A DNA stretch of 34,931 bases. Origin: a bacterium (GTDB lineage Bacteria; Electryoneota; JAOADG01). A program made the position numbers and the translations under genes. Below are positions 9,669 through 34,651 of the stretch, piece after piece (the stretch's first letter is position 1; the number at the start of each line of letters is the position of its first letter). The notes below the pieces were generated by a model, which did no database searches, was not told where the DNA came from, and saw only the letters and a list, made by a program, of their open reading frames with translations. The stretch spans positions 1 through 34,931 of the forward strand of contig JAOADG010000033.1 in NCBI GenBank assembly GCA_026417415.1. The letters are read 5' to 3'.

Positions 9669-11666
9669 CTATTTGACCAGTACCATTTTGATGGATTTGC
9701 TTTGGTTATAGGAATTGGTCAAACGAGCAACGTAAACCCCACTGGTTAACGCTTTTGCATCAAAGGTTATTGAATAACTCCCTGCATTGAGCACACCTTG
9801 TTTGAGTGTTGCGACAACTCTGCCTTGAACATCAAACACCTCAAGATTTATCGGCATAGGGTAGTTTAAGGTAAACTGAATTGAAGTAGTGGCATTAAAG
9901 GGGTTGGGATAGTTCCCAGCCAAATGAAACCCAATAGGTGACTGACTTTCCATCGGTTCGGGAGTGGAATTTGTTGAAAAATCAATCATTCGTAACGGGA
10001 TTAAGGGGGTGGTAGGAATCAGTTGCTTGGGAATTCTTTGGTAGTTAAAATCGTTGTGCGTCCAACCCCCTTCGGTCTGTAACACAAAACCTGCGTCATA
10101 ATCGGTGATATACGAAATATGGATGTAGTCATCCACCCAACGATTGGCAGAAGGCCAGTGTTCGCTGCGACATTGACCCATGGGAGCATTGGGAGTACGG
10201 GTATTGGTCACATTGGTCCCATACGACCAACGATCCCCATTATTGGTAGAAACCGCAATCATCAAGTCAAAATTGCACTCTTCGCTAAGCGAAACGTCTT
10301 GCATAAGTGTTGAATCGTTAGGATCATAGTGAGCAGTAAACACCATATACAAATAACCGGTACTCCAATCTTGCGTAAGTGATGGACGCATCACGGTAGT
10401 GTTCCAAGCGCCGGGATTTGCTAAAAGTGGCGACCAAAAATTTCCCCCTAATGCGGCCATATGGATAACCGTGGGTTGGGACTGACGCCAATGCCAAATA
10501 TTGCCAAATACATACGCTGCCGTATCATCATAAATGGTTTGTCCTAATGAATCGACACGGTGTACATCCCAACGGAAAAATTGCAAAGTCGTAAAGGCAC
10601 AATGGAGTTCATCATTGCGATCATACAGCAAACTAATGTCGTTGTAGGCACGAAAGGTATCCATATTGGCGGCAGCTGTGTCGGGAAGGTAGGAGGGAAT
10701 CGGATTCCGCCAATTGGTGATGTATTGAAACGCATCAAAGTTCCAAGTAAGCCCATCAGGCGATTCAACATACACCACATTGTTGTAGATTTGGTTGCTC
10801 CCAGAGGGAGTAATCCCATTGGGCTCTAAAGACATGGGTCTCATCCAAGCGATGGCGGTTTTGTTGGTAAGACGCGAGGCGGCGACCTCTGCCGCTATAT
10901 TTTCTGTCCGTCCCGGCAATAGAATGGGTGTGCTCCACGTGATTTGGGCGTTAATGGGATCGTACACACCACGGTGATACCACTGATTGTCCGCTTCTCC
11001 GGTGATGTTTTGATAGGTAACCACGTGGACTGCACCATTTCTACCTACGGCTATTCTGGGCCAAATGGCGTTGGCAGTGGTTCCATTCCATGTGGCTAAA
11101 GACATAGGGGCTTGCGAGAGAAATGCTCCCACACCAAACTCAAGATCAAAATAGACGTTGCTGGTAGTCACCGAAGCACGGGGGTTGTTTTCGTGAAATG
11201 CTAAAAAGGGTAACCCACTGCTGGAATAGACCCCTAGACAGGTAAAGCCACTGCGAGTGATAGTGGAGGGGTGAGCGGGAATCCCGTATTGGCCAAATGC
11301 CAACTGATTGCTCGCAGGGTAATACAGATTGTAATGTACGGTGCGGTTGGTAGCGGCACTGTCAATCCCGCGCATATAAGTAAAATGCAGGGCTTGGGTA
11401 TTGGTGTCTATTTCTAACATTCGTCCAATGGTCCCATTGTGCTGGCCCTCGTACCAGGTGCGGCCGATGCGGCGAACCATCCCAATGGTATCCGTTACAG
11501 GAGGCAACGTAGGCAACTGGTCCGTATCCAAAAAGGGAGCTGAACGATTTTCACTGCCGTCAAGGATTGGGAACGGCTGTTGGGAAATCTCGCAGAGTGT
11601 TTTAGAATAGAGAAGCGAACCAGCAATAACAGTCAAAATCAAGCAAATTAAAGCAGAACGATGCAT
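9669..11666 (-). CDS. T9SS cargo with sialidase-like propeller
   Basis: A 665-residue secreted protein. An N-terminal signal peptide (about 1-25) is followed by a large beta-rich body with an Asp-box-like motif (STNNGDRWS), suggesting a BNR/sialidase-type propeller. The C-terminal about 85 residues are a type IX sorting domain: GNYPNPFNATTSIQF, then VFDVQGRVVATLKQG, and the final GVYVARLTNSYNQSKSIKMVLVK. Such proteins cross the outer membrane through the type IX machinery and are anchored or released. No catalytic residues could be picked out, so enzyme activity is uncertain. A GGGAGG ribosome site precedes the ATG. It is divergent from the gene at 11761. Confidence 0.88.
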   Translation of the reverse strand: MHRSALICLILTVIAGSLLYSKTLCEISQQPFPILDGSENRSAPFLDTDQLPTLPPVTDTIGMVRRIGRTWYEGQHNGTIGRMLEIDTNTQALHFTYMRGIDSAATNRTVHYNLYYPASNQLAFGQYGIPAHPSTITRSGFTCLGVYSSSGLPFLAFHENNPRASVTTSNVYFDLEFGVGAFLSQAPMSLATWNGTTANAIWPRIAVGRNGAVHVVTYQNITGEADNQWYHRGVYDPINAQITWSTPILLPGRTENIAAEVAASRLTNKTAIAWMRPMSLEPNGITPSGSNQIYNNVVYVESPDGLTWNFDAFQYITNWRNPIPSYLPDTAAANMDTFRAYNDISLLYDRNDELHCAFTTLQFFRWDVHRVDSLGQTIYDDTAAYVFGNIWHWRQSQPTVIHMAALGGNFWSPLLANPGAWNTTVMRPSLTQDWSTGYLYMVFTAHYDPNDSTLMQDVSLSEECNFDLMIAVSTNNGDRWSYGTNVTNTRTPNAPMGQCRSEHWPSANRWVDDYIHISYITDYDAGFVLQTEGGWTHNDFNYQRIPKQLIPTTPLIPLRMIDFSTNSTPEPMESQSPIGFHLAGNYPNPFNATTSIQFTLNYPMPINLEVFDVQGRVVATLKQGVLNAGSYSITFDAKALTSGVYVARLTNSYNQSKSIKMVLVK

Positions 11667-22224: not shown

Positions 22225-24621
22225 ATGAGTAAAGCGGATTTGCATGTCCATTCCAAGTATTCAGAGCATCCTTCGGAGTGGTTTCTCAAGCGGTTAGGTG
22301 CGGCAGAATCCTATACGGATCCTTTTCATGTTTATCGTATGGCAAAAGAGAAAGGGATGAATTGGGTCACCATTACCGATCACAATCGCATTGAAGGGGC
22401 GTTGTTATTGAATGAGAAGTATCCGAAGGAAACGTTTTTAGGAGTTGAAGCAACCGCATATTTTCCAGAAGATGATTGCAAGATCCACGTCTTGTGCTAT
22501 GGATTCAGCGCTGAGCAGTTTGAAGTGATGGATCGTCTTCGTAATGATGTATATCAATTTAGAGATTATTTGGTACAAGAAAACATCGTACATTCCTTAG
22601 CCCATGCGACGTATGCGGTGAACAACAAATTGCAATACCATCATTTAGAGCGTCTCATTTTGTTGTTTAACATTTTTGAATCCATCAATGGCGGCCGCAA
22701 TCGTATGAATAATCTGCGTTGGACGTATGCACTATCCAAACTCACACCAGAGCATATAGAAGATTATCGCAGACGATACCACATAGAACCCGTCGGTGAT
22801 ACGCCTTGGATTAAAGGATTTACAGGCGGTTCAGACGATCACGCTGGAATCTTTATTGCGGATACTTATACCGAAGCAGAAGGAAAAACACCGCAAGAAT
22901 TTTTACAGAGCATCGCAAACCGACAAGGGAAGGCGCATGGAAGGCACAACGATTTTCAATCGTTAGTGTTTTCAGTGTATAAAATTGCATACGATTTTAC
23001 CAAAGAAAAAGGAAAAGAGTTTAGTGGAGCGCCGTTGCTTAGCCAATTGACAGAAGCCATTTTTGAAAAGAAATCGTTTTCTAAAACCAATCTTCTCAAA
23101 ATCAAGGGCTTAAAAGCCATTAACGGCAAACGCAAGCAGAAACGTCGCATCCAAGATCTGTTGTTTGATCTGATAGAAAAAGCAAATGAAGAAAAACCGA
23201 TTCAACAAAAGTTGAAAGATACTTTTGAAACCATTGCAGAGACCAGCGATGAACTATTAAAACTGTTGCTTCAATCGGTGGAATCGGATCTCATTAAAGG
23301 GGATGTGGACCATCTTATCAAGAATTTGACTACTGCTTTGCCCGGTGTGTTTTTATCCGTACCCTTTTTTACTTCTTTTCGGCATATGTACAAAGGTCGC
23401 GAGTTGCTTAACGAACTGCAAAAGCGCTTTGGAAACGGTTCCGCGCACAAAAGAATTTTGTGGTTTACCGATACGTTAAACGATTTGAATGGCGTGTCTG
23501 TAACGCTGCATACCATTGGCAAGCTTTCAATGATGCGAGACCAAGAGATCAAGATTGTCACCTCTGTGGATGCCAATGCGCTGATGCCATCGCCTTACAT
23601 CATTCATCTACCATCTATCTATTCTTACAACTTGCCGTACTACGAAAGTTATGTGTTACGCATCCCATCGCTATTGCGTTCGTTGGATATAATCTACCGC
23701 TACGAGCCAGACGAAATCTATCTTTCAACGCCCGGTCCCATGGGTTTGATTGGGCTTTTCATTGCAAGATTGATGTCCATTCCTTGTATCGGAATTTATC
23801 ATACCGACTTTCGTGCTCAAGCCAAAGAGATTGTAAAAGATGATGGTGTGGTGAAATTGTTGGATTCTTATGTACAGTGGTTTTACAAAATGGTAGATAC
23901 CATCCGCGTTCCAACCCAAGAGTATATGAACATATTGGAACAGCGCGGTTTTGATCGCACAAGAATGAAATTGTTTACACGTGGGGTAGATACGCATCAC
24001 TTTAGCCGACAAAATGTAGATAAATCCTATCTTCAAGAAAGGTTTGCAGTTCCCAAAGAGGGGATCCATTTCTTGTATGCAGGCCGCATCTCAAAAGACA
24101 AAAATTTGGAATTTTTATTTCAAGTGTTTGAAAACGTACAAAAAGCAATTCCGAACGCACGTCTTCTTCTTGCTGGTACGGGTCCAAATGTGGCTGAATT
24201 TGAAACACTAAGTACTCAAATGAAACATATCCATTTTATCGGAAAAGTAGCCCAAACGGAACTTCCAAAACTTTACTCTGCTGTGGATTTCTTGGTGTTC
24301 CCGAGCAATACAGACACCTTTGGGATGGTGGTAGTAGAAGCGTTAAGTTGTGGAGTACCGGTCTTTGTTTCCAACATCGGTGGACCAAAAGAGTTGGTAG
24401 AAGGGACACGTGCAGGTGTGGTTTTACCTGCCAACCACCTCCAAGCATGGACGGATGCGATTGTGCAAACCGTGCTGAAGTGCCAGCAATATCCAGAAAA
24501 CTACCTGCTAATGCAAACAGAAGCACGAAAAATAGCGCTGGAACGGTCCAATTGGGATAAAATTTTCCACGAATTGACCGCTTTTGAAGAACCGAAATGG
24601 TTGCTTGATGCACGGTTATAG
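22225..24621 (+). CDS. PHP phosphoesterase-GT4 glycosyltransferase fusion
   Basis: A 798-residue cytosolic fusion. The N-terminal PHP domain (about 1-270) has the metal ligands DLHVHSKYS, TITDHNRIEG, SLAHATYAV and GGSDDHAGI. A helical linker (about 280-390) follows. The C-terminal part (about 405-798) is a GT4 (GT-B fold) glycosyltransferase: TDTLNDLNGVSVTLHTIG in the acceptor half, then LYAGRISKDKNLEFLFQVFENV, GTGP, and FPSNTDTFGMVVVEALSCGVPV with GGPKELVEG, as in GDP-mannose- or UDP-sugar-dependent transferases of the PimB/SqdX group. PHP may hydrolyse a sugar phosphate or remove a phosphate after transfer. It has an AGGAGA ribosome site, is divergent from feoB, and a strong terminator follows. 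Confidence 0.9.
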   Translation: MSKADLHVHSKYSEHPSEWFLKRLGAAESYTDPFHVYRMAKEKGMNWVTITDHNRIEGALLLNEKYPKETFLGVEATAYFPEDDCKIHVLCYGFSAEQFEVMDRLRNDVYQFRDYLVQENIVHSLAHATYAVNNKLQYHHLERLILLFNIFESINGGRNRMNNLRWTYALSKLTPEHIEDYRRRYHIEPVGDTPWIKGFTGGSDDHAGIFIADTYTEAEGKTPQEFLQSIANRQGKAHGRHNDFQSLVFSVYKIAYDFTKEKGKEFSGAPLLSQLTEAIFEKKSFSKTNLLKIKGLKAINGKRKQKRRIQDLLFDLIEKANEEKPIQQKLKDTFETIAETSDELLKLLLQSVESDLIKGDVDHLIKNLTTALPGVFLSVPFFTSFRHMYKGRELLNELQKRFGNGSAHKRILWFTDTLNDLNGVSVTLHTIGKLSMMRDQEIKIVTSVDANALMPSPYIIHLPSIYSYNLPYYESYVLRIPSLLRSLDIIYRYEPDEIYLSTPGPMGLIGLFIARLMSIPCIGIYHTDFRAQAKEIVKDDGVVKLLDSYVQWFYKMVDTIRVPTQEYMNILEQRGFDRTRMKLFTRGVDTHHFSRQNVDKSYLQERFAVPKEGIHFLYAGRISKDKNLEFLFQVFENVQKAIPNARLLLAGTGPNVAEFETLSTQMKHIHFIGKVAQTELPKLYSAVDFLVFPSNTDTFGMVVVEALSCGVPVFVSNIGGPKELVEGTRAGVVLPANHLQAWTDAIVQTVLKCQQYPENYLLMQTEARKIALERSNWDKIFHELTAFEEPKWLLDARL

Positions 24622-26779: not shown

Positions 26780-27901
26780 ATGATACGACTGGCAAAACGA
26801 AGCGAATATTCAATCATTTCAGCCTTTTTGCGTCAGCACTGGGCGGACAATCACATCTATACGCGTTCCAAGCCCCTGTTTGATTGGACCTTTGGTTTGC
26901 CACTCTGCGAGGAAAGCGAGGAGTACAGTTTTGCCCTTGCTTTTCACCAAGGCGAATGTGTAGGGATCTTAGGTGCCATTCCCTTTACGTTGAACGTGTA
27001 CGGAGAAACGAAACCTGCCTATTGGCTTGCCAATTGGATGACTACCCGTGACCAGCGCAGCACCACCACTGGGCTTCAACTACTGAAACAGTTTGACCGC
27101 ACTGCTGATCAAGTCATCATTTCTTTTGGCATCAATGCGAACGTTGCACGCATTTACCGTGCCTTGCATTGGCAGGTTTTGGAAACAACACCAAGATATC
27201 TGGCGCTTTCCCCTCACCATCAAGAACGCATCCGTGCTTTACTCGCAGCCCTTTATCCGGATATCCCATTCACTATGGTAGAAAGCATGCTCAAGTTTTT
27301 TACCATTCCTTCCGACGGTTCAAAAGGTGACGTTTCTTTGGAAGCACCCATCGGTCTTTCCGATTGGGATGCTAAGGGCTGGCGGTTTTTTGCACCCAAT
27401 TTGATTGGAGCGGCTCGGCATTCAGCGTACCTAAAATGGCGCTACCTTGATCACCCACATTTTCAATACCATTGCTACTTTCTACCCTTTGAAGGGCGGA
27501 TGGGGTTATTGGTTTACCGCATAGAGCATTTTCATTACCGTCCGTCCGAGCAGGCCGAACCCATCAGCGAACGTTTGTTGCGAGTGGTAGAGTTTTTAGC
27601 GGTTTCAAAAGAACAAAGCATCCAATTTTTACAACTGTTGCAACAGAAACTCCTTGAGCATGATGCGCTTGGCTTTGATATGTGGGGTTTTTATGGAAAA
27701 ACAGAGCAATGGTTGAATGAAATAGGAATTAGTTGTACAGAAGATTTTTCGTCGTATGTCCCTTTTCCATCGCGTTTCCAACCCATTGAACCGACCCTAA
27801 CGACCATCATGAGCGCCTTCAAAGGGGTTGAGCAAATCCCAAGTCGCGGTTCCGATTGGTATTGGACCAAAAGCGATTCGGATCAGGATCGTCCCAATTA
27901 A
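26780..27901 (+). CDS. GNAT-like N-acyltransferase of a surface or metabolite pathway
   Basis: A 373-residue protein with the look of the large GNAT-type acyltransferases of exopolysaccharide loci. Residues 1-140 carry a GNAT-like fold (IRLAKRSEYSIISAFLRQHW, then GECVGILGAIPFTLNVYG, then SFGINANVARIYRALHW). The middle has the characteristic YLKWRYLDHPHFQY, and a second beta-rich half follows (GLLVYRIEHFHYR). The ATG at 26780 is preceded by AAGGAAG; the in-frame TTG at 26762 overlaps that site. It opens a six-gene operon and could be the transferase that moves the acyl group made by the downstream carrier-protein genes. The family call is moderate. Confidence 0.7.
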   Translation: MIRLAKRSEYSIISAFLRQHWADNHIYTRSKPLFDWTFGLPLCEESEEYSFALAFHQGECVGILGAIPFTLNVYGETKPAYWLANWMTTRDQRSTTTGLQLLKQFDRTADQVIISFGINANVARIYRALHWQVLETTPRYLALSPHHQERIRALLAALYPDIPFTMVESMLKFFTIPSDGSKGDVSLEAPIGLSDWDAKGWRFFAPNLIGAARHSAYLKWRYLDHPHFQYHCYFLPFEGRMGLLVYRIEHFHYRPSEQAEPISERLLRVVEFLAVSKEQSIQFLQLLQQKLLEHDALGFDMWGFYGKTEQWLNEIGISCTEDFSSYVPFPSRFQPIEPTLTTIMSAFKGVEQIPSRGSDWYWTKSDSDQDRPN

Positions 27902-27925
27902 CTCATTTGTGCAAGGGGGAATCAA

Positions 27926-28867
27926 ATGAAACCATACGGATTAATGTTTCATCATTTTCATGATCATCAACGCCATCCTGAAGTGCAAGGTTCAATTGAT
28001 GCGGAAACCTTTGAAGCGTTGCTTCGGTTTGTAGGATTGGATCGCATCGTACCTGCTCAACTGTGGATGGAACGTTTCCTTGATGGGACGCTACCGGAGG
28101 ATGCGCTCTGTTTGACCTTTGACGATGCGTTGCGTTCCCAATACGATGTTGCCTTTCCGGTGTTGCAAAAGTTAGGGTTAACCGGGTTCTTTTTTATCTA
28201 TACTTCGCCGTTAGAAGGGGTAGTTGAAAAATTGGAATTCTATCGTTATATTCGGACGACGCAGTATCGTACCATTGATGAATTCTATCAACATTTCTTT
28301 GAGGTGTGTGAAGCGTCCGAATATCGTGAACTATACGAACAAGGACGAAAGCGTTTTCGTGAAGAAGATTGGGCAATTTACCCCTTTTATTCTTACAACG
28401 ATAAGTTGTTTCGGCATATCCGCGATTTTGCGTTAGGTCAAGAACGTTATTATGAGATTATGGAACGTATTGTAGCCGAGCATTCGCTTGATTATCGTAC
28501 AATCTACGAGTTGTTGTGGTTAAACCGTGTGACCATTGAAGAGTTGCACCGCGCGGGAAACGTCATTGGGTTGCACACTCATACGCATCCCACGGATATT
28601 CGTCAGATGCCGTACCATCAGCAGTTTTTGGAGTATAACCACAATTTACATGTGCTACAAACCATCACCCAACAGACCCCCGTGGCAATGTCCCATCCAA
28701 ACGGGCGGTACAATGACGATACGCTTGACATTTTACAACGCTTAAAAATTCGTATCGGCTTTCGTTCGGATATGCAAAAACTCGATTCGGATCACCCTTA
28801 CGAAATATCTAGGTACGATCACGCTTTGCTCAAACGAGATTATCAACAATACAAAGCAGTGATATGA
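27926..28867 (+). CDS. Polysaccharide deacetylase (NodB/CE4-like)
   Basis: A 313-residue NodB-fold deacetylase. Motif 1 is LTFDDA with Asp66-Asp67, and motif 2 is HTHTHP (217-222) with the metal histidines, both intact. Between them lies a long insertion (about 100-200), mostly helical and charged, larger than in ordinary CE4 enzymes. There is no signal peptide, so it acts in the cytosol, perhaps on a lipid- or nucleotide-linked sugar rather than on finished cell wall. The N-terminal MFHHFHDHQRHP is a feature of this subgroup. It overlaps the next gene by 4 bp. Confidence 0.85.
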   Translation: MKPYGLMFHHFHDHQRHPEVQGSIDAETFEALLRFVGLDRIVPAQLWMERFLDGTLPEDALCLTFDDALRSQYDVAFPVLQKLGLTGFFFIYTSPLEGVVEKLEFYRYIRTTQYRTIDEFYQHFFEVCEASEYRELYEQGRKRFREEDWAIYPFYSYNDKLFRHIRDFALGQERYYEIMERIVAEHSLDYRTIYELLWLNRVTIEELHRAGNVIGLHTHTHPTDIRQMPYHQQFLEYNHNLHVLQTITQQTPVAMSHPNGRYNDDTLDILQRLKIRIGFRSDMQKLDSDHPYEISRYDHALLKRDYQQYKAVI

Positions 28868-30372
28868 ACCATCCTTTTTTATTGGAAAACCACCGCTTGG
28901 TCTCGCTTAACCACAGCGAGCCACTCTCTGCTATTGAACCCATGACAGAAGCAGAAGAAAATGCGTTGCTCCAAACCTATCGTCAACGGGTGATTGGGTG
29001 GGATGCGGTGATCCACACCCCCTTCGGTGAAAAACCGCTGATTTACGCCGATTTTACTGCTTCTGGCAGATTTTTTCGGGATATTGAAGACGAACTCAAC
29101 GAACGGATTTTACCATTTATTGCCAACACACATAGCGAGACCACAACTTTAGCACGTTACATTACCCATCACTACCATCTTGCCTTCCAAAAAATTGCTC
29201 ATTACGTTCATGCGGATGATGAGTATGTGTTAATCCCTGTGGGAGCGGGTTCCACCGGTGCCATCAATCGGTTGATTCTAGCCATGGGCTTGCGTATCCC
29301 CGCTTGGTGTCAAGGCAAGGTCCAGCGGGATGCACTCCCGCCTTTGGTCATACGTTCGCTAATGGAACACCATTCCAACGATATCGCTTGGCGTGAAACC
29401 ATTGCAGAAACCCAATACGTTGGGTTTAGTCGGCAAGGGACCATTGACCTGAACCAATTGGAAGATTTGGTCAAAAACCATTGTGGCAAACGGATGATTA
29501 TTGGCACCTTTTCCGCCGCATCTAACGTTACTGGGATACAAAATGATGTGTACCAAATAGCACGCATATTGCATCGTTATGGGGGAGTGGCCTTTTTTGA
29601 TTTTGCTGCTGCAGCCCCGCATGTGCGGTTGGATGTAAAACCTCAAGATCAACCGTTGGATTATGCCGATGCACTGTTTCTTTCTACTCACAAGTTCATT
29701 GGTGGACCTCGCACACCGGGGTTACTGATTGCACGTAAATCTTTGTTTTCCAGTAGTGTTCCTGTAGAACCGGGGGGTGGTACAGTGCTTTACACCTCAC
29801 CTTGGGATCATCGCTATCTTCCAGATCTTACCGCACGTGAGACCGGGGGTACGCCCCCTATCACTCAATCCATTCAAGCGGGGTTGGTGTTTGACTTAAA
29901 AGAGCGGATGGGGATTGAACGGATGGAAGCGGTGGAGCAAGATTACATTCAACGCGCCTACCAGCGTTGGAGCCAGCATCCCAACATCCGTTTACTGGGA
30001 AATTTTTCAGTCCCGCGTGTGGGAATTATTTCGCTTATTATCCACGAGATGCACCACGAACTGGTGGTGGCACTCTTGAACGATTATTATGGAATACAGG
30101 TACGCGGTGGGTGTATGTGCGCGGGACCGTATGGACACGAACTATTGAACATTGATGAAGTGCATAGCAAATTTATCCGTAACCTATTGGATGCGGGTCA
30201 TATTGCCTCTAAACCGGGATGGGTACGCGTTTCGCTTTCACCCGCACTATCAGAAGACAATTTTGAAACGTTACTCCATGCGGTAGAAGAAATTGCAACC
30301 CACGGCAAACAGATGGCAAAACGGTATGAATATCACGAACCCACCAATGCTTGGGTGTATCATAAAACTTGA
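28864..30372 (+). CDS. Class V PLP enzyme (cysteine desulfurase-like)
   Basis: A 502-residue fold-type I PLP enzyme of aminotransferase class V. The PLP lysine is Lys277 in LFLSTHKFIGGPRTPGLL, and FFDFAAAAPH (about 245-254) holds the cofactor Asp. The segment VRGGCMCAGPYGH (about 413-425) supplies cysteines at the position of the active cysteine in SufS-like desulfurases. The N-terminal YADFTASGRFF and HSETT are typical of the group. It is longer than SufS (about 400). It may desulfurate cysteine or transaminate a substrate for this operon. It starts ATGA-overlapped with the deacetylase. Confidence 0.85.
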   Translation: MNHPFLLENHRLVSLNHSEPLSAIEPMTEAEENALLQTYRQRVIGWDAVIHTPFGEKPLIYADFTASGRFFRDIEDELNERILPFIANTHSETTTLARYITHHYHLAFQKIAHYVHADDEYVLIPVGAGSTGAINRLILAMGLRIPAWCQGKVQRDALPPLVIRSLMEHHSNDIAWRETIAETQYVGFSRQGTIDLNQLEDLVKNHCGKRMIIGTFSAASNVTGIQNDVYQIARILHRYGGVAFFDFAAAAPHVRLDVKPQDQPLDYADALFLSTHKFIGGPRTPGLLIARKSLFSSSVPVEPGGGTVLYTSPWDHRYLPDLTARETGGTPPITQSIQAGLVFDLKERMGIERMEAVEQDYIQRAYQRWSQHPNIRLLGNFSVPRVGIISLIIHEMHHELVVALLNDYYGIQVRGGCMCAGPYGHELLNIDEVHSKFIRNLLDAGHIASKPGWVRVSLSPALSEDNFETLLHAVEEIATHGKQMAKRYEYHEPTNAWVYHKT

Positions 30373-30405
30373 TTTTTTTATCCAATACCACAAACGGGGG
30401 TGAGT

Positions 30406-30639
30406 ATGACGGTTCAAGAAACCATATTCCAAATTATGAAAGAAACAGCAGAAGAAAAGGGAGCAAGCATCCAGCCCAATCTTCAACTGCCTATTGGTGA
30501 GTTGGGTTTTGATTCTATGGATTGGGCGGTGATTGTGGTCAAATTAGAGCAAGAATTAGGGTTTGACCCCTTTGCCGATGGGGCGCGCTTTGAAATCAAT
30601 ACCGTTCAGGATTTTGTTCGCTTGTACCAAAAAGAATAG
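30406..30639 (+). CDS. Acyl/peptidyl carrier protein
   Basis: A 77-residue carrier protein. The phosphopantetheine attachment site is Ser37 in LGFDSMDWAVIVVKLEQELG, with the acidic helix II following. The start is ATG 30406, with a GGGGG ribosome site; GTG 30400 is in frame but overlaps that site. It is placed between the PLP enzyme and the AMP ligase, so it is a dedicated carrier rather than the fatty-acid ACP. The next gene begins at the base after its stop. Confidence 0.9.
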   Translation: MTVQETIFQIMKETAEEKGASIQPNLQLPIGELGFDSMDWAVIVVKLEQELGFDPFADGARFEINTVQDFVRLYQKE

Positions 30640-31968
30640 ATGATGTTGTACCATTTACTTCAACAACTCTGTCAAGAAGATGGTTCTCGCTATGCCATCA
30701 TTTATCAAGGTAAACCCTTTCGTTACAACGATTTATTGGAATTGGTGAATGGGTTCATGGTGCCTTGGCAGTCGCTGCGCGGAGTTCGCGTGGGAATTCA
30801 GTACACCCATCCCATTGCCCATTTAGGTTGGCTGATTGCTTTACATCAGATTGGTGCCCACATTTTTTTGTTGGGAAATCGCAAAGATACAGAAATTGTA
30901 GAGTTGCAGAAACGGTTTGGGATTGCAACCGTGTTCCCTTTTCACGACACTGACGCAGAAGCCCAAATCCAAACCCACACTTCCCAGGATTCCTTTGGAT
31001 ACATTACCCTTTTGACCTCTGGGACTACGGGGATTCCCAAAGCAGCCACACATACCATTGAATCACTGACCAAACCGGTAAGAAAAGATCCGTCTTTACG
31101 AGATACGGTTTGGTTTTTTCCCTATCCCCCTTATTTGTATGCGGGGTTGCAAGTCACTTTTCAAGCACTGCTCAATGGCTCTACCTTGGTGGTCCCAGAA
31201 TCGCTTTCACCTTTGGAAGCGGCACAATGCTTTATTCAAAACCGAGTTACCCACGCCACGGGAACTCCCACCTTTTGGCGGCAGGTGCTGCTGTTTGCTC
31301 CTAAAACCATTTTGGAACAATGTAGCTTTCAACAAATTACTTTAGGGGGCGAAACGGTACCCCAAGATATTTTGGATGGCTTGAAAAAACATTTTCCCAA
31401 GGCACGGATAAGCCACATCTATGCTTCTTCCGAACTTGGGCGATTGTTTTCGGTAAATGATGGTCGTGCAGGGTTCCCGACAAAATGGTTAGAGCAAGCC
31501 CCGGAGGAGGGGATTGCGTTAAAAGTAGTCAATCATCAGCTTTTTGCACGTAGCAAAAACGCAATGACACGCTACGAAGATCGGCAACTCCCAACCGATG
31601 AGGAAGGATGGGTAGCAACTGGCGATCTGGTAAGAATTGAAGGGGAGCGCGTCTATTTTGAAGGGCGTGAAAGCGATATCATCAACGTTGGGGGAGCAAA
31701 AGTTTCACCACTACAGGTAGAAAATTGTTTGTTGGCGGTAGAAGGAGTTGCGCAGGTGCGGGTTTACGGAAAAAGTAGTTCGGTGGTGGGCCAATTGGTT
31801 TGTGCTGATGTGGTCCCACATCAGGGGGTAGATCCTGCTCAGCTGAAAAAAAAGATTCTTCAATTTGCTCGGGAAACGTTAGAACCGCACTGCATTCCCA
31901 GAGTGATTCAGTTCGTCAACACCATTGAAATCAACGAATCAGGAAAAACCGTTAGGAAAGGACAATAG
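30640..31968 (+). CDS. AMP-dependent acyl/aminoacyl ligase
   Basis: A 442-residue adenylate-forming enzyme (ANL family), shorter than usual (500-550). Core motifs are: A3 LLTSGTTGIPKAATH (124-138), an A4-like aromatic stretch (FFPYPPYLYAG), A5 YASSELG, A7 WVATGDLV, A8 GRESDIINVGGAKVSPLQVE, and A10 INESGKTVRKG with the catalytic Lys436. It activates a carboxylic or amino acid as an adenylate and loads it on the adjoining carrier protein. Substrate is not predictable by eye. ATGATG gives two possible starts, 30640 and 30643. Confidence 0.88.
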   Translation: MMLYHLLQQLCQEDGSRYAIIYQGKPFRYNDLLELVNGFMVPWQSLRGVRVGIQYTHPIAHLGWLIALHQIGAHIFLLGNRKDTEIVELQKRFGIATVFPFHDTDAEAQIQTHTSQDSFGYITLLTSGTTGIPKAATHTIESLTKPVRKDPSLRDTVWFFPYPPYLYAGLQVTFQALLNGSTLVVPESLSPLEAAQCFIQNRVTHATGTPTFWRQVLLFAPKTILEQCSFQQITLGGETVPQDILDGLKKHFPKARISHIYASSELGRLFSVNDGRAGFPTKWLEQAPEEGIALKVVNHQLFARSKNAMTRYEDRQLPTDEEGWVATGDLVRIEGERVYFEGRESDIINVGGAKVSPLQVENCLLAVEGVAQVRVYGKSSSVVGQLVCADVVPHQGVDPAQLKKKILQFARETLEPHCIPRVIQFVNTIEINESGKTVRKGQ

Positions 31969-31976
31969 GGGAGAAT

Positions 31977-32708
31977 ATGAACCATCAACCGTTGGTATTG
32001 ATTAGTGGAGGAAGTAAGGGGTTAGGGTTAGAAATCGTAAAACGCTTGTTGCAAGCGGGTTATCGTGTGGTCACCTTTAGCCGCAAATCCACTTCCGAAG
32101 TAGAAACATTAAGCCAAACTTATCCCCAGTCCTTTTGGTTTTTTGAAGGGGATATGTCCCAAGTAGAAGCATTGGAGCCACAAATTAAGCGCATAGAAAA
32201 AGATCTTGGTCCCATTGAAATTTTGATTAACAATGCGGGGATTGCTCGCGATGGTGTGCTCCCAATACAAAGTGTAGAAGATATTGAAACGGTTATCCAC
32301 GTGAATTTAGTGGGGGTGTTGAAACTGACCCGCTTGGTGTCACGGCTTATGATCGTGCGAAAACGGGGCTGCATAATCAACATCTCGTCCATCGTGGGAC
32401 TGCGGGGCTATCGCGGACTGGCGGCTTATTCGGCCTCTAAAGCCGGCTTAGATGGAATGACGCGTGCTTTAGCACGGGAGTTTGGTGAAAAAAATATCCG
32501 CGTCAATAGCATCGCACCGGGCTACCTTATCACCGAAATGACAGGGACGATGGACGAAGAGCACAAACAACAAATCATCCGACGCACCCCTTTGGGTCGC
32601 TTAGGCACACCACAAGATGTTGCTGGTGCAGTGCTGTTCCTGATTTCACCGGACGCCGCTTTCATCACCGGCCACACTCTGGTCATTGACGGCGGCGTCA
32701 CGTGTTAA
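31977..32708 (+). CDS. FabG-like short-chain 3-oxoacyl reductase
   Basis: A 243-residue SDR. The NAD(P) site is SGGSKGLG (10-17) and NNAG is at 85-88. The catalytic Asn110, Ser138, Tyr151 and Lys155 are all present (NISSIVGLRGYRG, then YSASK). The C-terminal GHTLVIDGG is typical of 3-oxoacyl-carrier reductases. In this operon it probably reduces a keto group on the carrier-bound acyl chain. A GGGGAG site precedes the ATG. The gene ends 3 bp from the convergent PKD gene. Confidence 0.9.
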   Translation: MNHQPLVLISGGSKGLGLEIVKRLLQAGYRVVTFSRKSTSEVETLSQTYPQSFWFFEGDMSQVEALEPQIKRIEKDLGPIEILINNAGIARDGVLPIQSVEDIETVIHVNLVGVLKLTRLVSRLMIVRKRGCIINISSIVGLRGYRGLAAYSASKAGLDGMTRALAREFGEKNIRVNSIAPGYLITEMTGTMDEEHKQQIIRRTPLGRLGTPQDVAGAVLFLISPDAAFITGHTLVIDGGVTC

Positions 32709-32711
32709 AAT

Positions 32712-33428
32712 TTATCTCCAAATTAATGTTAAAGTAACTCTAACTTGTCCATTTTGGAGTAATACATTCGCTGGATAATTGTTTCCAATGTTGTTTATAG
32801 CAAAGTTAACGCTTCCAATAAAATCATGACTACTAAAATCATCATAATCAAATATGTTTAAACTGTATAATTGGGAACGGTTTGAAATGAAGTATGGAGT
32901 AGAGAAGTCCCAAATCAACGGCAGTTGTGATTGAACAATATCAAATATTGGTTGAGTTGATGCAATCAAAGTATTATTTGTTACAAGTTCACAAAATACA
33001 TCTGGACCAGTTGTTAAATCCCATCCACTACCTTGATTGTCTGTAAAAGGAATTTGGTGAATTGTAAATCGACTTAAATAGACACTACCAGGTTCAATAA
33101 ATACACTCCGATTAGCAATATTCGATCGATTGGTTGAAGTTTGAATTGCAGTTAAAGTAATTGTGTACTGTCCCATCGTTGTATAAGTCACAGTCGGGCT
33201 GTGAATATTGGATGTTCTTCCATCTCCGAAATTCCATAAATAGCTGTCAGCATTCAATGACGTATTGGTTAAAGTTAAAGTTGCTGGAGTAACCATGGTT
33301 CCATTTATAGAAAAACTAGCAATTGGTGCATCTGTGTTTTGTGGTGCTAACGGATTACTGTTTTCACTAGTGTTGTTACAACCAATTACAATTAGTATGA
33401 AAATGAAAAAAACAATCAACTTTTTCAT
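32712..33428 (-). CDS. PKD-domain lipoprotein
   Basis: A 238-residue lipoprotein with lipobox ILIVIGC (Cys17). One PKD domain (about 35-110) has the YLWNFGDGRTS strand. A C-terminal C2-like beta sandwich (about 115-238) follows, with QIPFTDNQGSGWDLTTGPDVF and IFDYDDFSSHDFIG. GGAGG lies just upstream of the ATG. It is a paralogue of the next gene at 33537, but with one PKD domain instead of two. Base composition looks more AT-rich than its neighbours. Surface function is unknown. Confidence 0.8.
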   Translation of the reverse strand: MKKLIVFFIFILIVIGCNNTSENSNPLAPQNTDAPIASFSINGTMVTPATLTLTNTSLNADSYLWNFGDGRTSNIHSPTVTYTTMGQYTITLTAIQTSTNRSNIANRSVFIEPGSVYLSRFTIHQIPFTDNQGSGWDLTTGPDVFCELVTNNTLIASTQPIFDIVQSQLPLIWDFSTPYFISNRSQLYSLNIFDYDDFSSHDFIGSVNFAINNIGNNYPANVLLQNGQVRVTLTLIWR

Positions 33429-33536
33429 TTACATTCCTCCAAATATTGAATGACTATATATTAGAATTTGAATGCTCACCATTTGATTCCAGAAAGGGTA
33501 GTTGAATTTATTGACAACAAAGAAAGAACAACTGTA

Positions 33537-34481
33537 CTACCACCATTCTAACGTCAAGATCAGATTGGCAAAACGATTTTGGATCGGTGCTTCGGTTGGA
33601 TAATCGTTCAACCGATTTAACTCATTGACCACAAATCCTACAACACATAAACAATCAGAATTTGAAAATTTATCTAAATCATAGATCTTTATTTCGTAAT
33701 TTTGATTCCAATCTGAAAGGACACACGGTTCTTTCAATGGAATAAATAAAGGCAGATGGGAAGGTGTAAGTTCATATTTTACAGAACTGGATGCAAGAAC
33801 ACTATTCCCAACCGAAATTTCGTAAAACAAATCAGGGCCACTGTCTATATCCCACCCTGCTCCATAACCTGTGGTAAAGGGAATTTTTTGAAAGTAAACA
33901 CCACGAATAGACACCTTACTTGGTGTAATTTGAACACTTCTTGTAAATTTGTGGGACTTTCCCGTTGATGTTTGAAAAGCAGTCAAAGTAATAGCATAAA
34001 CCCCCGCACGTTCATAGGTCACGTTTGGATTCGTAATGGTTGAGGTTCTGTTATCACCGAAATCCCAGAAATATCGATCTGCATTTTGTGAACTGTTGGT
34101 CAACGTTAAGGTAGCAGGACTAACGGTTGAGCCGGAAATGGTAAAATTGGCAATAGGCGAAGGGGTAGAAATCACGATGACCTGCATTGCGGTATCGCTT
34201 CGGTTGGTGGAAGATTGAATAGCGATTAAAGTAACGGTGTAATGACCTTGGGTATCATAAGTAATGGTTGGATTGGTTATATTGGATGTACGCCCATCTC
34301 CGAAAATCCAAAGATAACTATCGGCGTTTTGTGAAGTATTGGTAAAGGTTAATGTTGCTGGTGTTTCGTTTGAACCTGAAACTGAAAAACTGGCTTTTGG
34401 GGGTGGCTGCTTTCGTTTGCAACCCAATGGTACCGTTGAAAAAGACAATACCAATAAGAAAAATAGGAAAATAGGTTTCAT
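33537..34481 (-). CDS. Two-PKD lipoprotein, paralogue of the neighbour
   Basis: A 314-residue lipoprotein with lipobox FSTVPLGC. Two PKD domains (about 25-105 and 108-190) carry YLWIFGDGRTS and YFWDFGDNRTS, followed by the same C-terminal C2-like sandwich (QKIPFTTGYGAGWDIDSGPD, then YEIKIYDLDKFSNSD). I used ATG 34481 with GTGGGA upstream; the in-frame GTG at 34493 is less likely. It lies 108 bp upstream of its paralogue, a tandem duplication with gain or loss of one PKD repeat. Confidence 0.8.
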   Translation of the reverse strand: MKPIFLFFLLVLSFSTVPLGCKRKQPPPKASFSVSGSNETPATLTFTNTSQNADSYLWIFGDGRTSNITNPTITYDTQGHYTVTLIAIQSSTNRSDTAMQVIVISTPSPIANFTISGSTVSPATLTLTNSSQNADRYFWDFGDNRTSTITNPNVTYERAGVYAITLTAFQTSTGKSHKFTRSVQITPSKVSIRGVYFQKIPFTTGYGAGWDIDSGPDLFYEISVGNSVLASSSVKYELTPSHLPLFIPLKEPCVLSDWNQNYEIKIYDLDKFSNSDCLCVVGFVVNELNRLNDYPTEAPIQNRFANLILTLEWW

Positions 34482-34651
34482 ACTTTTTCCCACTTATTGA
34501 ATGTATTGAATATACACTGATTATTTCTAAAATTCAACTCTTACATTCATGTTCATCATTTTCCCATACCATATTATTGATTATAAATAGCAAATTAGTT
34601 AAGGTAATTGTTTCGTTATTAGAATAATTTTCTTAACAAAATTGATTCAAT

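Follow-up and report, generated by a model that had tools for sequence, protein, structure and literature searches.

A carrier-protein operon with a NodB-type deacetylase, predicted to exchange the N-acyl group of a nonulosonic acid

Introduction

What use would a bacterium have for a sugar N-deacetylase that is encoded among the genes for an acyl carrier protein (ACP), an acyl ligase and a reductase? The question is raised by a 34,931-nucleotide stretch of DNA (the ‘window’: contig JAOADG010000033.1 of assembly GCA_026417415.1, forward strand, from a bacterium of the phylum Electryoneota), in which six intact, tightly spaced open reading frames (ORFs) occupy positions 26780-32708 on one strand. 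They encode a GNAT-type acyltransferase, a NodB-type deacetylase, a class V pyridoxal phosphate (PLP) enzyme, an ACP, an AMP-forming ligase and a short-chain dehydrogenase/reductase (SDR). The answer that we favor, and that we consider rather better than evenly supported, is that this operon, leaving aside its PLP gene, would replace the acyl group on a nitrogen of a nonulosonic acid, with legionaminic acid as the most likely substrate.

In the mechanism that we propose, the ligase would activate a short hydroxy- or oxo-acid as its AMP ester and load it onto the dedicated ACP, while the FabG-like reductase would make, or keep, the hydroxy form of the acyl group. The cytoplasmic NodB-type enzyme would strip the N-acetyl group inherited from N-acetylglucosamine (GlcNAc), i.e., that at N5 of the nine-carbon acid, and the GNAT would pass the acyl group from the ACP onto the freed amine. 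We infer the N5 position and the GNAT’s use of the ACP, as well as the order of the steps and a substrate that may be a free sugar, a nucleotide sugar or a CMP-acid. The acyl group itself would most likely be 3- or 4-hydroxybutyryl, which we guess from known structures and the FabG-like nature of the reductase. The 4-hydroxy isomer is mentioned only because the Yersinia ruckeri O1 O-antigen presumably carries a 5-(4-hydroxybutyramido)-7-acetamido nonulosonic acid, a point that we do not treat as evidence.

Results

A tight operon made of two joined parts

A preliminary description of this locus, made from the DNA letters, saw one tight six-gene operon, and here the ORF coordinates, the Pfam matches and the spacing by overlap and abutment all agree with it. 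In gene order (Table 1), 24 nucleotides (nt) lie between the first two genes, the second and third overlap by 4 nt (ATGA), and the gaps that follow are of about 30 nt, 0 nt (TAG followed directly by ATG) and 8 nt; the gap between the PLP and ACP genes is 33 nt when counted from the preferred ATG of the latter at 30406, rather than from an alternative GTG at 30400. From this spacing only, we infer that the six genes are co-transcribed; a promoter and terminator scan found nothing exceeding chance. The Pfam matches have E-values of 3.7e-7 (Acetyltransf_9), 1.5e-16 (Polysacc_deac_1), 3.8e-46 (Aminotran_5), 3.6e-6 (PP-binding), 6.9e-20 (AMP-binding, accompanied by AMP-binding_C) and 2.6e-59 (adh_short_C2). 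Furthermore, the catalytic motifs are intact: TFDD and H217/H221 in the deacetylase, STHKF in the PLP enzyme, GFDSM in the ACP, TSGTTG and the C-terminal Lys in the ligase, and YSASK in the SDR. The six proteins show neither signal peptides nor membrane helices, so that all of them are probably cytoplasmic.

The set consists of two joined parts: an ACP-ligase-reductase trio, and a NodB and a GNAT from two small subfamilies that repeatedly occur with acyl-activating modules. The idea of a six-gene operon conserved throughout the phylum was rejected: among 39 genomes of the phylum, a relative of the ligase occurs in only one besides that of the window, and a relative of the NodB-type protein in none.

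The deacetylase belongs to a clade that accompanies NeuB-type synthases

The window’s deacetylase has the features of the carbohydrate esterase family 4 (CE4)/NodB class (PF01522, the TFDD aspartate and the His-x3-His metal site), and its structural model (predicted local distance difference test, pLDDT, 91) is best matched in the PDB by PplD, PgaB and IcaB. It is probably a cytoplasmic N-deacetylase. Identity with PgaB/IcaB was considered and rejected, given a TIGR03938 score of 34.2 bits against a cut-off of 321.9 and the missing signal peptide.

A scan, for which the query was a two-sequence alignment of the window protein and its relative from Sinorhizobium americanum, yielded 22 loci from a wide range of phyla, and 21 of these are clear relatives; 21 other genomes and that of the window make up the 22 genomes considered below. 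Members of this clade have in common the sequence GLMFHHFH and the CE4 active site, and D66/D67, H217 and H221 are invariant across 17 of them. Such proteins are rare, with the clade represented in 2 of 386 genomes sampled around that of the window, and none was found in phage records.

The key observation to emerge from these genomes concerns the NeuB family (TIGR03569): all 22 match it at E<1e-60, and 15 exceed the curated cut-off. The corresponding background counts are 87 of 291 genomes (counted from a listing) and 16 of 291. Fisher values for this enrichment are 2e-12 and 2e-11, and 3e-8 after collapse to 15 lineages; these are rough values, the background being unmatched for genome size or habitat. 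A likely nonulosonic substrate, which the preliminary description did not contain, is thereby added to it. The window genome itself encodes NeuB/LegI (449.6 bits; cut-off 399.65), NeuC (416.6 bits; cut-off 235.9), NeuD (217 bits; cut-off 160.8) and, by Pfam, a NeuA-type cytidylyltransferase, all on contig C11; at the edge of contig C38 there is a LegC-type aminotransferase (462 bits; cut-off 420). In four of the other NodB loci (L055, L058, L059 and L070), neuB/neuC are adjacent or close to the deacetylase gene.

In the legionaminic and pseudaminic acid pathways, an aminotransferase furnishes the N7 amine, which is open to direct acylation; the nitrogen at N5, by contrast, bears the acetyl group of GlcNAc (PMC6137143), and a deacetylase therefore points to N5. 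Flexibacter maritimus is cited in a review (PMC3210612) for a 5-(3-hydroxybutyramido)-7-acetamido nonulosonic acid, in a text that is inconsistent on the positions. A search of open-access papers found no enzyme assigned as a nonulosonate N-deacetylase.

Two alternative acyl-donor partners of the deacetylase

A formyltransferase gene adjoins that of the NodB-type protein in seven loci, from Halobacillus (L058, L059), Fimbriimonadaceae (L060), a planctomycete (L068), an alphaproteobacterium (L069) and the genus of genome G310 (L097, L118). The NodB gene is followed directly by one for a PF00551-type formyltransferase at L058 10001-11720, L059 9911-11721, L060 2104-3896, L068 9857-11719 and L097 9562-11294, and in L097 the two genes overlap by 4 nt. 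We regard this combination as a candidate enzyme pair for making 5-N-formyl nonulosonic acids by deacetylation and formylation.

The other partner is the GNAT. The window protein falls within the GNAT superfamily (PF13527, 30.6 bits against a cut-off of 25), and a C-terminal D-x-D-x-D-R-P motif is common to all seven family members aligned. Its structural model, which is of low confidence (pLDDT 63), has two GNAT-like halves; N-myristoyltransferases are the best PDB matches of this weak model (E ~1e-8, TM score ~0.4, 10% identity). By sequence it had no match in the PDB, and none in plasmids. We propose that it is an ACP-dependent N-acyltransferase. GNATs with the motif are found at the NodB loci of the window, L055/L061, L062, L066, L070, L071 and L072, the taxa represented being Sinorhizobium, Rhodospirillaceae (L062), Bacteriovoracaceae (L066), Pseudovibrio (L070) and gammaproteobacteria (L071, L072). 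In other genomes of the NodB clade, this type of GNAT is encoded away from the NodB locus, with the motif in L113, L114 and L115; these genomes are from Magnetococcales, another gammaproteobacterium and two actinobacteria. The gammaproteobacterial copy (L116) is truncated at the C-terminus and shows no motif for that reason. Whole-genome searches of the NodB clade uncovered no genome with a strong match to both the GNAT and the formyltransferase (Fisher p ~0.002, and ~0.007 after lineage collapse).

The company kept by these GNATs is that of acyl-donor modules. An ACP is encoded at or near the GNAT in the window, L062, L066, L071, L072, L114, L115 and L116, and the further neighbors are a ligase (L071, L072), FkbH with MaoC (L066, L114), FkbH (L062) or LuxE/LuxC (L116). 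FkbH-type proteins stand together with an ACP and the GNAT near the NodB gene at L066 4500-7982 and L062 3779-7355, which suggests a glyceryl-type or related acyl donor. In two actinobacterial loci, the motif GNAT adjoins other deacetylases: L114 623-5555 has the order FkbH-ACP-MaoC-SDR-GNAT-PIG-L deacetylase, and L113 1-3442 has SDR-GNAT-second PF01522 deacetylase-LmbE-like protein.

The ACP-ligase-SDR trio is a known acyl module

The trio, adjacent and on one strand in the window, has the identical gene order in five other loci (L049-L053); the ligases of trios elsewhere are 32-36% identical to that of the window, and the SDRs 42-51%. We propose that the ligase is an acyl-ACP ligase and that the SDR, which scores 243 bits with TIGR01830 (below the cut-off of 298), is a 3-oxoacyl-ACP (or semialdehyde) reductase. 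The trio as such is a known acyl module of unproven function. In Azospirillum it adjoins pseI, ketosynthase III and flagellin, and in Rhodobacterales it is accompanied by a hexapeptide transferase; the window contains no pse/leg or flagellin genes. In genome G001, which belongs to the same family as the window genome, the trio follows genes for Gfo/Idh, hexapeptide transferase, DegT and a different GNAT (L053 918-7307), in what is probably a pathway to an N-acylated 3-amino sugar. This GNAT was rejected as a member of the window GNAT’s family, since it is 16% identical and the motif is absent. A GTDB scan with the ligase alone recovered no relatives.

The PLP enzyme is probably a bystander

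The class V PLP enzyme scores 143.8 bits with TIGR01979, far short of the SufS cut-off of 475.1, and its identification as a SufS/CsdA cysteine desulfurase was rejected for this reason. In the window genome, this type is present once, beside one distant SufS-like gene elsewhere in the genome's complement. Homologues at 52-64% identity are present in eleven other genomes of the phylum; their neighbors are not conserved and include none of the other five genes of the operon. Nor was a PLP gene of this kind recognized in the NodB-clade loci inspected outside the window genome. Because its homologues stand alone across the phylum, the gene is probably a stand-alone one that has been caught in, or flanked by, the operon. 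The preliminary description had the PLP enzyme contribute sulfur or amino chemistry, a role that these stand-alone homologues and the other NodB loci inspected do not support.

Features of the window and its operon

Three further features of the window were noted. An 798-residue ORF at 22225-24621 has an N-terminal part that resembles, by sequence, a PHP-type metal-dependent phosphoesterase, fused to a family 4 glycosyltransferase. A large secreted protein is encoded at 9669-11666; its C-terminus (YPNPFNATTSIQF...) resembles a type IX secretion sorting domain. Downstream of the operon, on the minus strand, two PKD-like repeat lipoproteins are encoded at 32712-34493, with a G+C content of 33-39% as compared to 43-49% for the operon.

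Table 1. The six genes of the operon, with positions in the window; aa, amino acids
Product	Position	Strand	Basis
Tandem-GNAT N-acyltransferase, 373 aa	26780..27901	+	Pfam Acetyltransf_9; C-terminal motif SDSDQDRPN
CE4/NodB-type N-deacetylase (predicted), ‘GLMFHHFH’ clade, 313 aa	27926..28867	+	Pfam; TFDD 64-67, H217/H221, SHP 256-258
Class V PLP enzyme, SufS-like fold, 502 aa	28864..30372	+	Pfam Aminotran_5
Acyl carrier protein, 77 aa, GFDSM with phosphopantetheine Ser	30406..30639	+	Pfam PP-binding; alignment
Short AMP-forming acyl ligase, 442 aa	30640..31968	+	Pfam AMP-binding and C-terminal domain
FabG-like SDR, 243 aa	31977..32708	+	Pfam adh_short_C2; TIGR01830 below cut-off

Discussion

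In the preliminary description, an acid would be activated, loaded and reduced, and then passed to an amine that the deacetylase exposes. The core of that proposal has held up, since both NodB and GNAT are found time and again, across many phyla, in the neighborhood of acyl-donor modules; the part assigned to the PLP enzyme has not. Several observations weigh against an acyl exchange on a nonulosonic acid. The operon is not adjacent to the neu/leg locus, which is on other contigs, and it is accompanied by no ketosynthase that might be the source of the acid. No locus with all six genes was found elsewhere, and the five genes other than the PLP gene were not seen together, by sequence, at another locus. 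The other motif GNATs are only 20-26% identical to that of the window, for which the model is weak, and two NodB-clade lineages (Roseibium/Labrenzia and Prochlorococcus) have no strong match to either the GNAT or the formyltransferase. The Azospirillum trios lack NodB, and G001, the closest trio-bearing relative of the window genome, has neither a deacetylase nor a strong NeuB match. Finally, the deacetylase of a Y. ruckeri O1 gene set that we compare below (BI323_13905) could in principle be PgaB, bearing in mind that this set is compared by published gene list and that a pga-like cluster is present in the O1 strains as well (PMC10174560).

Some of these points would also fit the same exchange on another N-acetyl sugar (for instance one of GlcNAc, N-acetylquinovosamine (QuiNAc) or bacillosamine type in a polysaccharide or glycolipid), the link to NeuB merely reflecting polysaccharide-rich genomes. 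Such a reading draws on the distance between the operon and the neu/leg locus, on the 3-amino-sugar pathway in which the G001 trio sits, and on five loci (L060, L065, L071, L072 and L074) that have no neu genes within the stretch examined. We nevertheless consider it unlikely in view of the universal presence of NeuB among the NodB genomes (22 of 22, as against the background of 16 or 87 of 291 given above) and the neuB/neuC genes that lie near NodB in four loci. We are more doubtful still that two unrelated units merely abut, i.e., that a GNAT-NodB pair and the ACP-ligase-SDR trio make different products and flank a conserved, stand-alone PLP gene: this gene’s conservation in relatives does make insertions on either side plausible, and the trio and NodB are each found without the other, but the tight spacing runs through all six genes, a GNAT, an ACP and a ligase are near NodB in L071 and L072, an ACP and FkbH accompany the GNAT in L062 and L066, and the Y. 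ruckeri locus tags are almost consecutive.

The notion that the PLP enzyme is integral and supplies sulfur or an amine towards a thio- or amino-acyl product seems very improbable to us. The 4-nt overlap with the NodB gene and the presence of both a SufS-like cysteine (GGCMC) and the lysine for PLP would be in keeping with it; the solitary homologues in the phylum, the other NodB loci in which no such gene was recognized and the score far below the SufS cut-off all speak against it.

We return to the proposed acyl exchange on a nonulosonic acid to ask how general it may be. The N-acyl groups of bacterial nonulosonic acids shape antigenicity and recognition by phage and host. Variants at N7 require only a different acyltransferase; a differing acyl group at N5 requires a deacetylation step. 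A general, as yet undescribed route is conceivable, and to our minds falls slightly short of an even chance, in which one intracellular deacetylase clade with interchangeable acyl donors alters the N5 acyl group of sialic-like sugars across many phyla. The donors that we propose are either a formyltransferase or an ACP-fed DxDxDRP GNAT that is supplied by ligase/FabG, FkbH/MaoC or LuxE/LuxC. If true, this route would account for the nonulosonic acids that are known to carry 5-N-formyl or 5-N-hydroxybutyryl groups; such a deacetylase clade, with its exchangeable donors, would fill the N5 step and permit the N5 acyl group to be predicted from genomes.

Comparison with known systems

The exchange that we propose is likely a variant of known sugar-acylation pathways, and sugars with exchanged acyl groups of this kind are already known. 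The preliminary description knew of no pathway with this exact set of genes. That stands insofar as no second six-gene locus was found, and it needs qualifying in that four of the six gene types appear in a Y. ruckeri O1 gene list and the trio in flagellin glycosylation islands. Among the O1-specific proteins of Y. ruckeri (Cascales et al.; PMC5552943) are a phosphopantetheine protein (BI323_13885), an AMP-dependent synthetase (BI323_13890), a 3-oxoacyl-ACP reductase (BI323_13895) and a polysaccharide deacetylase (BI323_13905), which the authors place under ‘other proteins’, unlinked to the likewise O1-specific legionaminic cluster from BI323_14300 onward. As in the window genome, the ACP, ligase, SDR and deacetylase are almost consecutive and the legionaminic locus is elsewhere, a likeness drawn by gene list alone; the list has no PLP gene and does not include BI323_13900, which we predict to be a DxDxDRP GNAT.

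In two reports (PMC7874193, PMC4875605), the same three gene types are described from Aeromonas group II flagellin glycosylation islands (ACP, 3-oxoacyl-ACP reductase and AMP-dependent synthetase, orf1-3) and from enterobacterial islands (Acp-CaiC-FabG). The Aeromonas trio accompanies pseudaminic acid genes; its function is given there as unproven, with a lipid component suggested. The passages on these islands mention no NodB/GNAT pair together with the trio, and the window’s operon is in no flagellin locus.

Halorubrum sp. PV6 makes 5-N-formyl-legionaminic acid, for which a candidate formyltransferase gene but no deacetylase was proposed (PMC6137143). Its legionaminic acid has a non-acetyl group at N5, and a formyltransferase gene is in the locus, as in the NodB-formyltransferase pairs of Halobacillus and others; it differs from the window in that the group is formyl rather than a carrier-bound acyl, and in that no deacetylase is assigned. 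The gene HrrPV6_1052, situated between those for NeuD and LegI in the Halorubrum locus, is not discussed in that paper.

PgaB, IcaB and PplD share their fold and catalytic motifs with the window’s deacetylase, which is set apart by having no signal peptide and by belonging to a separate, nonulosonate-linked clade. FdhC and QdhC, which attach 3-hydroxybutanoyl to the Fuc3N and Qui3N of O-antigens (discussed in PMC4869667), obtain their amine from an aminotransferase and need no deacetylase; in common with the proposed route of the window, they acylate the amine of a sugar destined for a surface polysaccharide.

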